DNA of 64,000 nt, from NCBI RefSeq assembly GCF_014773265.1, contig NZ_JACWMY010000002.1, positions 248,001 to 312,000 of the forward strand, in the 5' to 3' direction. This document shows, piece by piece, positions 7,069 through 36,999 of the stretch (the stretch's first letter is position 1; each line of letters begins with the position of its first letter). The notes beneath the pieces were generated by a model that saw only the letters and a list, made by a program, of their open reading frames with translations, had not been told where the DNA came from and ran no database searches. The position numbers and the translations under genes were made by a program. Source of the DNA: Mucilaginibacter pankratovii (GTDB taxonomy: Bacteria; Bacteroidota; Bacteroidia; Sphingobacteriales; Sphingobacteriaceae).

Positions 7069-7200
7069 ATAACACCACATTTCGATTTTCTATCTACTAC
7101 GCAAATAGGCTGCGCACGTCTTAGCTTATTTTGTTTTGCCTGGATTTGCGCTGCGCCTTAAAGCTATATTAGCGGAACCCGGAATTAAAAAACTTAAACT

Positions 7201-7854
7201 ATGCAAGATTTTGAAGCTTTCCTCAAAGACCTGAAAGAAATGGTTATCGTTAAAAAGGACCCCGACCTGGGGCAACCCTATGACCTCGCAATCGTTCCGT
7301 CCATCGGTAAACTTAAAACGGAAATACAAAACCAACATCTGGAGCAGCAGAAAATCACAATCAAACGTCAGCAGGCTGTTGCCGATGGTCTGCCGCAGGA
7401 ACTGATAGAAAATCTGGACGAATTTTCGGGCGATTGTGTGGACAATCAGATTTTGCTGGAGCAGCAAATGGCGGTAATAGCCGAAATGAGACTTGTTTAC
7501 CTCTACAAATCATTTGAAATAGAACTGAAGAAGTTATTGAAAAGTGCCTACAATGCACCTGCACGTTCTCTTTCCTCTGCTGATGACCAGATAGCCTTTC
7601 TGAAAACCAAAGGAATAAATGCGCGCCGTATTGCAGGATTTGCGGAGATCAATGAATTACGGACAATCGTCAATAATATCAAACACGGAACCGAATTAAA
7701 TTCTAAAGCAAAACGCATCCCGGAATTTGCGAATTCCGTTCAGGTTATCTTTGACCAGGGAACGACTTTTTACAAGCGGGTAGCGCCAATGGTTAACAAA
7801 CATATTGAAGTACTTTCTGAACAGGTTTTTAAAACACTTTATCCCGGAAGTTAG
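7201..7854 (+). CDS. Hypothetical protein with HEPN-like features (217 aa)
   Basis: A 217-aa, mostly helical cytosolic protein. A coiled-coil-like segment covers about residues 40-75. The stretch MRLVYLYKSFEIELKKLLK (about 97-115) followed 40 residues later by LRTIVNNIKHG resembles the helix pair and N-x-K-H-G end seen in some HEPN-superfamily proteins, several of which are RNases in defence or toxin systems. The usual R-x4-6-H spacing is not exact, so this is only a suggestion. A 93-aa gene follows 32 nt downstream and is probably co-transcribed. Confidence 0.65.
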   Translation: MQDFEAFLKDLKEMVIVKKDPDLGQPYDLAIVPSIGKLKTEIQNQHLEQQKITIKRQQAVADGLPQELIENLDEFSGDCVDNQILLEQQMAVIAEMRLVYLYKSFEIELKKLLKSAYNAPARSLSSADDQIAFLKTKGINARRIAGFAEINELRTIVNNIKHGTELNSKAKRIPEFANSVQVIFDQGTTFYKRVAPMVNKHIEVLSEQVFKTLYPGS

Positions 7855-33960: not shown

Positions 33961-33968
33961 TATCTTTG
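33961..33968 (+). promoter_or_regulatory. Likely -7 element of the RtcB/PrfH operon promoter
   Basis: TATCTTTG fits TAnnTTTG exactly. The -33 TTTG is poor at the usual distance. A start near 33975 would give a leader of about 270 nt before the first long gene, carrying the short ORF and hairpins listed next. Confidence 0.5.
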
Positions 33969-34011
33969 CATCCAATTCCTGATTTGTTAATCTTTTAAAT
34001 ATCAAGGAATC

Positions 34012-34059
34012 ATGACAGAGCTACGCTACATATCGCCCCTTTCGCTCATTGCCAATTAG
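34012..34059 (+). CDS. 15-codon leader ORF upstream of the RtcB/PrfH operon
   Basis: ATG at 34012 opens MTELRYISPLSLIAN and ends with TAG at 34057-34059. It sits about 37 nt after the predicted transcription start. Its last codons (ATT GCC AAT TAG) form the left arm of a hairpin with GGCAA at 34063-34067, so ribosome position on this ORF would decide how the leader folds. That is the layout of an attenuation leader peptide. Translation is not proven. Confidence 0.45.
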   Translation: MTELRYISPLSLIAN

Positions 34060-34136: not shown

Positions 34137-34244
34137 GAATTAATTTATTGGGCTTTTGTTGAGCGCTCTTAAAAGGGTATATCCTTACTCAAGGACGAAA
34201 TAGAGATCCAATAACATTTCAAGACAAAATTAAATGGAAGTCCG

Positions 34245-34973
34245 ATGGACATACATGAATGGCCGCGCTGTATCAAATCTGCGCGGCAAAAAAGGCGGCT
34301 CGTAAAAACAGATCGGGATAAGCAACTGATACAGCTTAACAAAAGGCGCGATGAACTTTGGGAACAACAAAGGCTTTTGCCAAAGGTGCGTTTAGAACAC
34401 CCTTATCAGCGCGGTTGGAAACGTTTCTTTGTGCTGCGGGATGATATTAAACGTAGTCCGCAAGCCGATTTTTATGAGGCTTTGCTGGTAAAAATTAACA
34501 CGGTTGAGTATCATCACGATAAATCGTTCAAACGCAAAAAGCGACGTAAAGGGCGCAACGTGTACGTAGTTAAGCAACAGCAATTACAGGAGTTTTATGA
34601 CTACAGCTGGCAAGTTAACCGGATGAAATTAACCGAGAATGAGAAAACCTGCTTTACACGCGTGGAATTTATGAATACGAACCGCAGGTTAGATGTGAAA
34701 TATGTGGTTACCGAACCCTGGCGCTATGTACTGAAAATATTGCCTCGCATAATAACGCATGTTAAATTGATGGATGTAGATATTGAAAAGGAGCTGGCGT
34801 ATATAGATAATCGTATCGATAGCTACTATCTCGAACCGCGTCTCTATCGCTTAACCCGCGGCCGTCGTTACCGCTGGAAAGATGAATTTAACGAGCCCGC
34901 CAAATACATTAACAAATTAAAAAACATACCCGGGTATGCCTATAAAGAAGCCTACCTGGAATTAGAAACATAA
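34245..34973 (+). CDS. Highly basic unknown protein in the RtcB/PrfH operon
   Basis: A 242-aa, strongly basic protein (Lys and Arg clusters such as KSFKRKKRRKGRN and RLTRGRRYRWK) with helical segments and no signal peptide. The charge suggests RNA or ribosome binding. I do not recognise the family. It ends 5 nt before the rtcB start, so it is clearly part of the RNA-repair operon. An overlapping ATG at 34234 in another frame gives only a 23-residue ORF. A role as ribosome-docking or damage-recognition partner is a hypothesis. Confidence 0.7.
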   Translation: MDIHEWPRCIKSARQKRRLVKTDRDKQLIQLNKRRDELWEQQRLLPKVRLEHPYQRGWKRFFVLRDDIKRSPQADFYEALLVKINTVEYHHDKSFKRKKRRKGRNVYVVKQQQLQEFYDYSWQVNRMKLTENEKTCFTRVEFMNTNRRLDVKYVVTEPWRYVLKILPRIITHVKLMDVDIEKELAYIDNRIDSYYLEPRLYRLTRGRRYRWKDEFNEPAKYINKLKNIPGYAYKEAYLELET

Positions 34974-34978
34974 CCCAC

Positions 34979-36379
34979 ATGGGCAATTTAAGAACAAAAG
35001 ATCTAAGTAAAATAGGTTATCATAACGATCAGCTGCGAAGCCTGATAATTGGCATAGCCTCTAAAAATTTCAAGCACTACAGCAACCAGCAATTGCTTGA
35101 CCTGTTGGTGAATATTAAAAATAATCCGGGCGCCTATTTGGATGATGAATTAACAAGCAAGATAGCCGAAAAGGTAATCGGCAAAACGGATGCGCCTCTG
35201 TTTAAAACATTTGAACTGCGGGATGAACCGGTATACTGTAAAACCTATGGCGGCAAGCACATTGAGCAATCGGCAAAAAAACAAATGGAGCTGGCTAACC
35301 TGCTTCCCGTGAGCGTACAAGGTGCATTAATGCCCGATGCGCACATGGGCTTTGGTTTGCCTATTGGTGGCGTATTGGCGACAAATAATGCGGTAATACC
35401 GTATGCTGTAGGTATGGATATTGGCTGCCGCATGGCCCTATCAATTATTGATGAAAGTGATGGTTTCTTAAAGCGATTTGAATATCAAATTAAACAAGCC
35501 CTAAAAACTCATACCCATTTTGGGATGGAAGGTGGTTTGGAAACCAGGCAGGAACACGAAGTTTTAGATAGCCCCGTGTTTAACCAAATTCCATTTTTGA
35601 AACCACTGCGCAGTAAAGCTGTAAGGCAATTAGGCACATCGGGTAACGGCAACCACTTTGTGGAGTTTGGCGAGATCGAATTATTAGCCGATAACACATT
35701 AGGCTTACCGGCTAAAAAGTATGCGGCCCTGCTGACACATTCAGGCAGCCGTGGTTTAGGCTCGGCCATTGCAAGGCATTACACGCAGATAGCCATGAAT
35801 ACCTGCAAACTTCCGCGCCATGCACAGCAATTGGCCTGGTTGGATATGAGTAGCGAAGCGGGGCAGGAATATTGGTTAACTATGACTCTGGCCGGCGATT
35901 ATGCCAAAGCTTGCCACGAACGTATCCATGCTAATCTGTTAAAGGCCTTAGGTTTGAAGGCTCTGCACGTGGTAGAGAACCACCACAACTTTGCCTGGAA
36001 AGACCAGTTGGCTGATGGCCGGGATGTTATTATCCATCGCAAGGGTGCAACACCTGCTCACAAAGGCGAGTTGGGTATTATTCCCGGCAGCATGACCACA
36101 CCGGCTTACCTGGTAGCAGGCAAAGGAACCAGCGATGCATTATACTCCGCATCGCACGGTGCCGGCCGGGCCATGAGCAGGCAAAAGGCTAAGGATAGCA
36201 TGACAGTATCAGCGATGAAAAAAATGCTGACCAATGCCAATGTAAACCTGATTGGCGGCACGGTTGAAGAGAACCCTTTGGCTTACAAGGATATCGAGAC
36301 TGTAATAGCAGCTCAACACGACCTGATAGATATCCAGGGCAAGTTTTATCCACGGATCGTTAGAATGAACAAGGATTAG
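34979..36379 (+). CDS. rtcB: RtcB-family RNA ligase
   Basis: A 466-aa RNA ligase that seals 2',3'-cyclic-phosphate or 3'-phosphate ends to 5'-OH with GTP and Mn2+. Landmarks: DAHMGFGLPIGGVL (120-133), metal Cys150 (GMDIGCRM), GNGNHFVEF (222-230), HSGSRGLG (254-261), ENHHNFAW (333-340), and the guanylylated His393 in SASHGAGR. It is followed at once by the release-factor-like gene prfH; the RtcB2-PrfH pairing is known to repair ribosomes cut in the decoding centre of 16S rRNA. Together with the upstream basic protein this looks like a dedicated rescue operon. Confidence 0.95.
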   Translation: MGNLRTKDLSKIGYHNDQLRSLIIGIASKNFKHYSNQQLLDLLVNIKNNPGAYLDDELTSKIAEKVIGKTDAPLFKTFELRDEPVYCKTYGGKHIEQSAKKQMELANLLPVSVQGALMPDAHMGFGLPIGGVLATNNAVIPYAVGMDIGCRMALSIIDESDGFLKRFEYQIKQALKTHTHFGMEGGLETRQEHEVLDSPVFNQIPFLKPLRSKAVRQLGTSGNGNHFVEFGEIELLADNTLGLPAKKYAALLTHSGSRGLGSAIARHYTQIAMNTCKLPRHAQQLAWLDMSSEAGQEYWLTMTLAGDYAKACHERIHANLLKALGLKALHVVENHHNFAWKDQLADGRDVIIHRKGATPAHKGELGIIPGSMTTPAYLVAGKGTSDALYSASHGAGRAMSRQKAKDSMTVSAMKKMLTNANVNLIGGTVEENPLAYKDIETVIAAQHDLIDIQGKFYPRIVRMNKD

Positions 36380-36381
36380 TG

Positions 36382-36999
36382 ATGAAAAAGATGATGATAC
36401 AAATCACCTCGGGCAAAGGCCCGGCAGAATGCTGCCGGGTTGTAGCCTGCGTGCAAAGCCTGATGATGAAGCAGGCCAAACAACAGGATATCCAAATTGA
36501 AGTGCTGGAAAACAAAGCCGGCGAATTAAACGGCACCTTGTTATCTGCAACCATGATGGCTATGGGTCATAACCTGGATGCATTTGTAAAAGAATGGAGC
36601 GGCACCGTACAATGGATAGCGCAAAGCCCTTATCGTAAATACCACAAGCGCAAGAACTGGTTTGTTGGTGTAGCCGCTTTTGATGTGCAGGAACTGATGC
36701 AATGGAACCCTAAAGATGTAAAGCTGGAAACCTGCCGTTCTTCCGGGCCGGGTGGGCAGAATGTAAATAAGGTGGAAACCGCAGTTCGGGGAACCCATCT
36801 GCCGTCGGGATTGCAAGTTATGGCGATGGATACGCGCTCACAACTGGAGAATAAGAAGCTTTGCCTGGCCCGGCTGGAAGCCAAAATAATGGTTTGGCAA
36901 ACCGAACAACTGATAGCGCAACAGCAAAGCCAGTGGCAGGAACATAACGCCCTGGAGCGGGGCAATCCGGTAAAAACGATAAAGGCTAAATTGTTTTAA
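36382..36999 (+). CDS. prfH: Peptide chain release factor-like protein PrfH
   Basis: A 205-aa release-factor-like protein with the peptidyl-tRNA hydrolysis motif GGQ (124-126, in SSGPGGQNVNKVETAVRG) but no codon-recognition domain. It begins SGKGPAECCRVVACVQ, the typical opening of PrfH. It would free the peptide from a stalled ribosome whose rRNA is damaged, so that RtcB can reseal the RNA. A GTG one codon earlier (36379) overlaps the rtcB stop and could be the true start; coupling is tight in either case. Confidence 0.93.
   Translation: MKKMMIQITSGKGPAECCRVVACVQSLMMKQAKQQDIQIEVLENKAGELNGTLLSATMMAMGHNLDAFVKEWSGTVQWIAQSPYRKYHKRKNWFVGVAAFDVQELMQWNPKDVKLETCRSSGPGGQNVNKVETAVRGTHLPSGLQVMAMDTRSQLENKKLCLARLEAKIMVWQTEQLIAQQQSQWQEHNALERGNPVKTIKAKLF

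Follow-up and report, generated by a model that had tools for sequence, protein, structure and literature searches.

We analysed a 64,000-nucleotide stretch of the genome of Mucilaginibacter pankratovii (assembly GCF_014773265.1, contig NZ_JACWMY010000002.1, positions 248,001 to 312,000 of the forward strand; hereafter the window, in whose coordinates all positions are given), and we describe an operon of three genes on its plus strand, which encode a strongly basic protein, here called X, an RtcB2-like RNA ligase and peptide chain release factor H (PrfH). A preliminary description of this DNA had placed a Lys/Arg-rich gene for a 242-aa protein 5 nt before rtcB, with prfH following, and the coordinates, the spacing and the basic character (net charge +22 by our count) were all confirmed. 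X occupies 34245–34973 (ATG start, 242 aa), rtcB occupies 34979–36379 (466 aa), and prfH, which encodes a GGQ-bearing protein of 206 aa, occupies 36379–36999 with a GTG start or an ATG at 36382. The stop codon of X lies 5 nt ahead of the rtcB ATG, and rtcB and prfH overlap by 1 base, as position 36379 both closes the rtcB stop codon and opens the prfH GTG.

PrfH scored 245 bits against the NCBIfam model TIGR03072, above the cut-off of 166.65. RtcB is a clear member of Pfam family PF01139 (E 4.6e-76), and its translation contains GMDIGC, GNH, THSGSRG, HHN and SHGAGR, which we take to be the active-site motifs. Against the narrower, prfH-linked NCBIfam model TIGR03073 it reached 149.8 bits, below the cut-off of 271.8, and we have therefore filed the operon as RtcB2-PrfH-like, with a divergent RtcB. 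The genome has one other RtcB gene, on another contig. Archease is an activator of RtcB; X did not match the Archease family (PF01951), and a search of the whole genome found no member of it.

X belongs to an undescribed family that accompanies RtcB ligases. Lysine and arginine together make up 23% of its residues, with a basic cluster, SFKRKKRRKGR, at residues 94–104, and all 16 members of the family that were measured are basic (net charge +9 to +29). Among relatives from Mucilaginibacter and Pedobacter with an unbroken RtcB, the identity of X is 45–73% versus 66–94% for RtcB, and the frame of X is kept; X thus evolves faster than RtcB yet remains open, and a chance open reading frame (ORF) is ruled out by this retention of the frame across relatives. 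Across 19 sequences, drawn from the window and its relatives, from Opitutia (a class of Verrucomicrobiota) and from viruses, 13 positions never vary, PYQRGW among them; the motif reads PYQ(R/K)GW in nearer members and is altered in more distant ones (L126 and L153). The preliminary description had called the protein unrecognised, and it remains so: X passed no family cut-off in Pfam or NCBIfam, and nothing was found for the X of the window at E ≤ 0.1 among the PHROGs and PADLOC profiles. Moreover, it had no match in plasmid records, viral X had none in phage records, and the best PDB sequence for X had an E of 0.57.

The AlphaFold2 model of X, made from 19 aligned sequences, has a mean pLDDT of 81.5; between residue 21 and about residue 200 the values exceed 80, and for most of that span they exceed 90. 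The model of a viral member (L119) has a pLDDT of 81.3. The two predicted cores have one order of elements, which begins with a long helix, a long strand, a helix and short strands, and continues with two short helices, two strands, a long strand and helices; the models are not independent of each other, because their alignments share rows. Foldseek with the X model gave no match at E ≤ 0.001 in PDB or BFVD, and the best VIA-align result (Z 5.7, rmsd 4.4, 67 residues) is at a level that the VIA-align notes call common. Comparison of structures, which had been proposed as a way to recognise an unrelated known family, hence gave no significant match, and the predicted fold of X stands without a counterpart in the searched databases, which does not in itself prove the fold to be new.

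Distribution of X and its neighbours

Homologues of X are found mostly beside rtcB, in three families of Bacteroidota and in another phylum, so that the co-occurrence proposed in the preliminary description was borne out. Some of the gene contents given here for single loci are those among the matches listed. X matches, some of them partial or interrupted, were present in 17 of 100 relatives, all within the genus. Genome records gave 17 X loci, from Mucilaginibacter, Pedobacter, Bacteroidetes bins and two Opitutia, and rtcB was located 3′ of X in 14 of them, with one gene in between in L035. Of the remaining three, two end at a contig edge, and the flanks of the other (L030) contain no rtcB. 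When the phylum was sampled evenly, 13 of 395 genomes matched X. One of these (G541) has an X fragment with stops and was left out of the count of intact genes, and in all 12 genomes with an intact X, from three families, X is followed by rtcB and prfH in an operon.

Some rtcB-prfH operons of the two other families (L145–L154) have added genes, which are zinc-finger-like (weak), nucleotidyltransferase-like (a weak Lnu-type match) or encode TPR proteins, and a pair of X paralogues is present in the genome of L153. Genome G905 contains two X-rtcB operons (L186 and L194) headed by the same leader, one with a full prfH and the other keeping only the first ∼20 prfH codons.

Outside the phylum, X was found in 4 of 188 genomes sampled from the class Opitutia. 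An RtcB gene lies within ∼2 kb of X in all four (83 nt downstream in L126), and the fetched stretches of these genomes contain 7 to 25 tRNA genes. In the Opitutia locus L034, TROVE (Ro60) and HNH genes are located upstream of X. Among viral contigs, L119 carries X, 7 tRNA genes and a Band_7 gene (E 3.6e-25), and L120 carries X and 26 tRNA genes. No PrfH match was found in the Opitutia and viral X loci. Ro60(TROVE)/RtcB and Band-7/RtcB loci are reportedly treated in a comparative review of RNA repair. The neighbourhoods of the distant relatives suggest that, in some hosts, X acts on tRNA or on RNA that resembles it.

X might then be a tRNA-binding protein of translational-stress islands, which acts on tRNA and not on rRNA and has entered the rtcB-prfH operon secondarily. 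Six of the seven distant loci have at least 7 tRNA genes in the fetched stretch, the exception being L034 with 1 by ARAGORN or 3 by Rfam, and a parallel exists in Anabaena, where a single repressor, relieved by translation stress, controls a tRNA array together with rtcB, HNH and slipin genes (PMC10272220, available part). The distant relatives of X resemble this trn/TrcR regulon and the Ro60(TROVE)/RtcB and Band-7/RtcB loci in their location near TROVE, Band-7, HNH or RtcB genes plus tRNA genes; the available part of the same paper names no X-like protein. However, in the phylum of the window X accompanies rtcB-prfH and no tRNA array, and the 64-kb window itself contains no tRNA gene, and we consider a role of X confined to tRNA quite unlikely.

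Arrays of 7–43 tRNA genes were observed in L125–L128 and L130, with RtcB in L125–L128, HNH and sigma-70-like genes adjoining X in L035/L128, and HNH in L127. Sub-threshold matches to YrlA (Y RNA-like) lie near the TROVE gene of L034.

Leaders ahead of the operon

A conserved leader upstream of X is an addition to the preliminary description. Conserved DNA extends over ∼230 bases 5′ of X and starts right after a promoter-like element, TATCTTTG (33961–33968, plus strand, as are all leader features below), which fits TAnnTTTG, the consensus of the Bacteroidetes −7 promoter element; a similar element is located just 5′ of the conserved leader in most of 22 aligned loci. The secondary structure was predicted with RNAalifold from an alignment of 45 leaders, which were chosen by the presence of an upstream ORF (uORF), so that the alignment says nothing on uORF retention, and from which a false uORF match (L106) and duplicates (L116–L118) had been dropped. 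In this prediction the leader has a 5′ hairpin, AATTCCTGAT / ATCAAGGAATC (33974–34011), six core pairs of which are present in 41–45 of the 45 leaders, and the Shine–Dalgarno-like AAGGA of the uORF sits in its 3′ arm. The uORF (34012–34059) has 15 codons and encodes the putative leader peptide MTELRYISPLSLIAN.

A search of 149 genomes of the genus with the nucleotide pattern of this uORF gave 36 places, distributed over 35 genomes, while the reversed pattern as a control gave none. Behind the uORF lies rtcB at 35 of the 36 places, and at the last one (G007) X is cut off by the end of the contig. Between uORF and rtcB lies X at 21 places (G007 included), an X remnant at one, and no X match at 14; the context of 32 places was taken from one survey and that of L009, L072, L075 and L082 from other locus annotations. 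Because the leader thus heads rtcB operons without X, it belongs to the repair operon, and a leader belonging to X is ruled out.

A predicted long-range helix joins the uORF to the downstream leader. Its 5′ strand, CCCCTTTCGCTCA, is inside the uORF (34036–34048), its 3′ strand (TGAGCG ... AAAGGG) is at 34160–34177, and the uORF codons CCCCUUUCGCUCA are paired with UGAGCG...AAAGGG ∼110 bases on. Pair probabilities are 0.88–0.9998, and 11 of the 12 pairs are present in 35–45 of the 45 leaders, the remaining pair in 25. In a few sequences both strands have changed, as in CCCAUU/AAUGGG in L012–L014, and since the helix is mostly invariant, support from covariation is limited to these few. A further conserved hairpin, TCCTT-ACTC-AAGGA, follows GGGTATA (34182–34195), with its pairs in 39–45 of the 45 leaders and several of them changed on both sides. 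No Rfam match was found at the leaders, and a known Rfam RNA is thereby ruled out. Terminator-like hairpins at ≤ −5 kcal/mol were present in 24% of leaders of this type versus 17.5% in shuffles, and as they are hardly commoner than in shuffles, a simple intrinsic-terminator attenuator is ruled out for the leader of the window.

A second leader type was found, and g55, a further genus of the family, has both. A different uORF, 24–28 codons long in most cases, is carried by most g55 operons lacking the window-type leader and by each of the 10 X-bearing operons fetched from the two other families. At 20 of 26 second-type loci the uORF ends just before a strong hairpin with a T-run, and in 19 of them the two are 15–24 bases apart. 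No uORF with terminator was found in L096, L097, L107, L110, L111 and L113, although L097 shows one in the pairing analysis, and the uORF assigned to L146 in the terminator survey is probably in the wrong frame. The bases before the uORF, the 3′ end of the uORF and the hairpin arms can pair 1:2, 2:3 and 3:4, and these alternative pairings are of similar predicted energy in 11 correctly parsed loci (L101, L104 and L146, parsed wrongly in strand or uORF, were excluded). The second leader type is, as far as sequence can tell, a classical attenuator layout and on paper a protein-free switch.

A comparable arrangement is known from Pseudomonas aeruginosa, where ribosomes that stall on the leader peptide PA5471.1 keep a terminator from forming and so switch on armZ (PA5471, RtcB-like), which adjoins prfH (PA5470), according to the available parts of PMC13041342 and PMC12057347. 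As described there, the window shares with it a short leader ORF before an rtcB-like gene next to prfH and the pairing of uORF RNA with the downstream leader (translation of the uORF being predicted), and it differs in having X and no recognisable intrinsic terminator, whereas the second leader type also shares the uORF, the mutually exclusive pairings and the terminator. Leader peptides of the phylum of the window differ between leader types and lineages. In our search, the literature on leader peptides and attenuation of prfH or rtcB consisted of the P. aeruginosa papers or general reviews. By analogy with PA5471.1 and the second leader type, ribosomes that start the uORF and fail to finish it would turn the operon on, and the conserved leader of the window may thus sense ailing ribosomes; its effect on expression is putative.

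The position of X as first gene after a structured leader would also suit a regulator of the operon, which for example binds its own leader RNA or promoter, and the X of L030, with no rtcB in its flanks, is still preceded by a related leader. However, this leader also stands before operons that lack X (at 14 of the 36 places, and at one more with a remnant), which means that the leader does not need X, and the second leader type has a switch that is complete on paper without a protein. Hence, we regard a regulatory role of X as unlikely.

X as a candidate partner of RtcB

In L024, L025, L026 and L029, X is found with an intact 466-aa RtcB, while prfH has been truncated, has decayed or is missing altogether. 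These four Pedobacter genomes contain no PrfH above the cut-off at any place, and they rule out that X is specific to PrfH. L194 is likewise an X-rtcB locus without full prfH, and was not counted as such evidence because the same genome has a second, complete operon. As X and rtcB persist without prfH, X is tied more closely to the ligase than to the release factor.

The preliminary description had proposed that X might bind the damaged ribosome or the RNA ends. In the former case X would belong to the PrfH branch, as a factor that binds ribosomes and recognises 70S particles with a cut decoding centre. Its strong basic charge is shared by many ribosome-associated proteins, and all 12 genomes of the phylum sample with an intact X do have prfH, but in the four Pedobacter genomes X and rtcB persist with no PrfH over the cut-off, the Opitutia and viral relatives have no PrfH match in their loci, and most rtcB-prfH loci of the family have no X, as detailed below. 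In view of the Pedobacter genomes and the distant loci without PrfH, X more likely acts with RtcB and the RNA substrate of that ligase than specifically at the damaged decoding centre, and with distant relatives lying near RtcB, Band-7, TROVE and tRNA genes, the tie to the cut decoding centre was not upheld. We therefore find a ribosome-binding X rather unlikely. X is probably an optional partner of RtcB, with RNA binding probable, rather than a PrfH or ribosome factor.

Our reading of the locus, to which we give about an even chance, is that of a three-gene RNA-repair operon in which X would be an optional basic accessory that binds RNA and works with RtcB. The basis for X as an accessory of RtcB is co-inheritance, tight spacing, a conserved core and charge, persistence without prfH, and occurrence in loci with tRNA genes and RNA-repair genes.

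Several observations weigh against this reading. PrfH over the cut-off was found at 49 places in 251 genomes of the family, and only 10 of these have a full X while 39 have none. In 11 of 28 X-less loci tested, which include four close relatives (L092, L093, L094 and L098), the bases ahead of rtcB still resemble one end of X, with a score (≥ 39 at either end) that 0 of 200 mononucleotide shuffles reached; X was formerly present in those loci and then lost. With X at 10 of 49 loci and remnants showing several losses, RtcB2-PrfH works without X. In L030 (Pedobacter UBA5917) an intact X has no rtcB within ∼5 kb, and the sole RtcB gene of that genome is on another contig. X is broken by a TAG in G042 (L015/L036), with no rtcB in the short locus, and in L190 it is intact although the adjoining rtcB frame stops at 291 codons. 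The cluster SFKRKKRRKGR is missing from the Opitutia relatives L034 and L035, no fold match and no PDB-sequence match of X points to RNA binding, and the near-background frequency of terminator hairpins in the window-type leader belongs on the same side. Thus the earlier claim of a new component of the repair system stands in so far as X is tied to rtcB, and is weakened by X being optional and by its persistence without prfH.

Patchy presence and losses with remnants would also be expected of a selfish or passenger gene in the operon, such as a homing-type element or a toxin, and HNH genes are found near some X relatives. However, the position of X in the operon is equal in three families, its core is conserved, and it matches no nuclease family, and a selfish X is in our view highly improbable.

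With X as a partner of RtcB, the operon can be compared with the RtcB2-PrfH module of Escherichia coli (ATCC25922), which protects the cell from colicin E3 (PMC9223846, available part). As far as that source describes the module, the window is alike in rtcB directly before prfH, with touching ends, and in a TIGR03072 PrfH; it differs by X in front, by the uORF leader and by an RtcB below the TIGR03073 cut-off. A two-gene operon is described in the available part of PMC1586002, and no paper on a third gene of an rtcB-prfH operon was found, judged by titles and the beginnings of abstracts, in literature whose coverage was mostly without subscription papers. By analogy with the E. coli homologues, RtcB2 would re-seal cut RNA and PrfH would free the stuck ribosome, and X could present broken RNA (rRNA or tRNA) to RtcB or hold its ends, for which both RNA binding and contact with RtcB are presumed.

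A wider proposal is more tentative, and we hold it to be somewhat less than an even bet: X would stand for a novel family whose fold has no match, and would serve as a dedicated RNA-binding cofactor of RtcB ligases in rRNA-repair operons of Bacteroidota, in tRNA-array stress islands of Verrucomicrobiota and in phages, and the operons would be switched on by damaged ribosomes through at least two leader-peptide devices. What is new here is how widely the X family occurs, how it has been lost, that it does not depend on prfH, and that two types of leader exist. Bacterial RtcB gains a candidate partner family that is amenable to purification and testing, and the X family and the leader together make RNA repair in this bacterial group testable in new ways. 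The leaders suggest that bacteria sense broken ribosomes by their failure on a tiny leader gene; if this is true, two leader designs in one phylum and the P. aeruginosa case would mean that control of rRNA repair of this sort has arisen more than once.

Further features of the loci

The start codon of X is inside a small potential hairpin, seen by eye (34236–34250), which differs on both sides among aligned loci (GTCC-GAT-GGAC versus GTGT-GATGA-ACAC). An inverted repeat directly upstream of rtcB (∼34925–34960 in the window) is often present, for example as CCAGGTA...TACCTGG, and similar but different repeats before rtcB were seen by eye in X-less loci such as L074, L082 and L083. In L106, a group II intron match above the Rfam threshold (7170–7246 of that locus) adjoins the rtcB-prfH operon.

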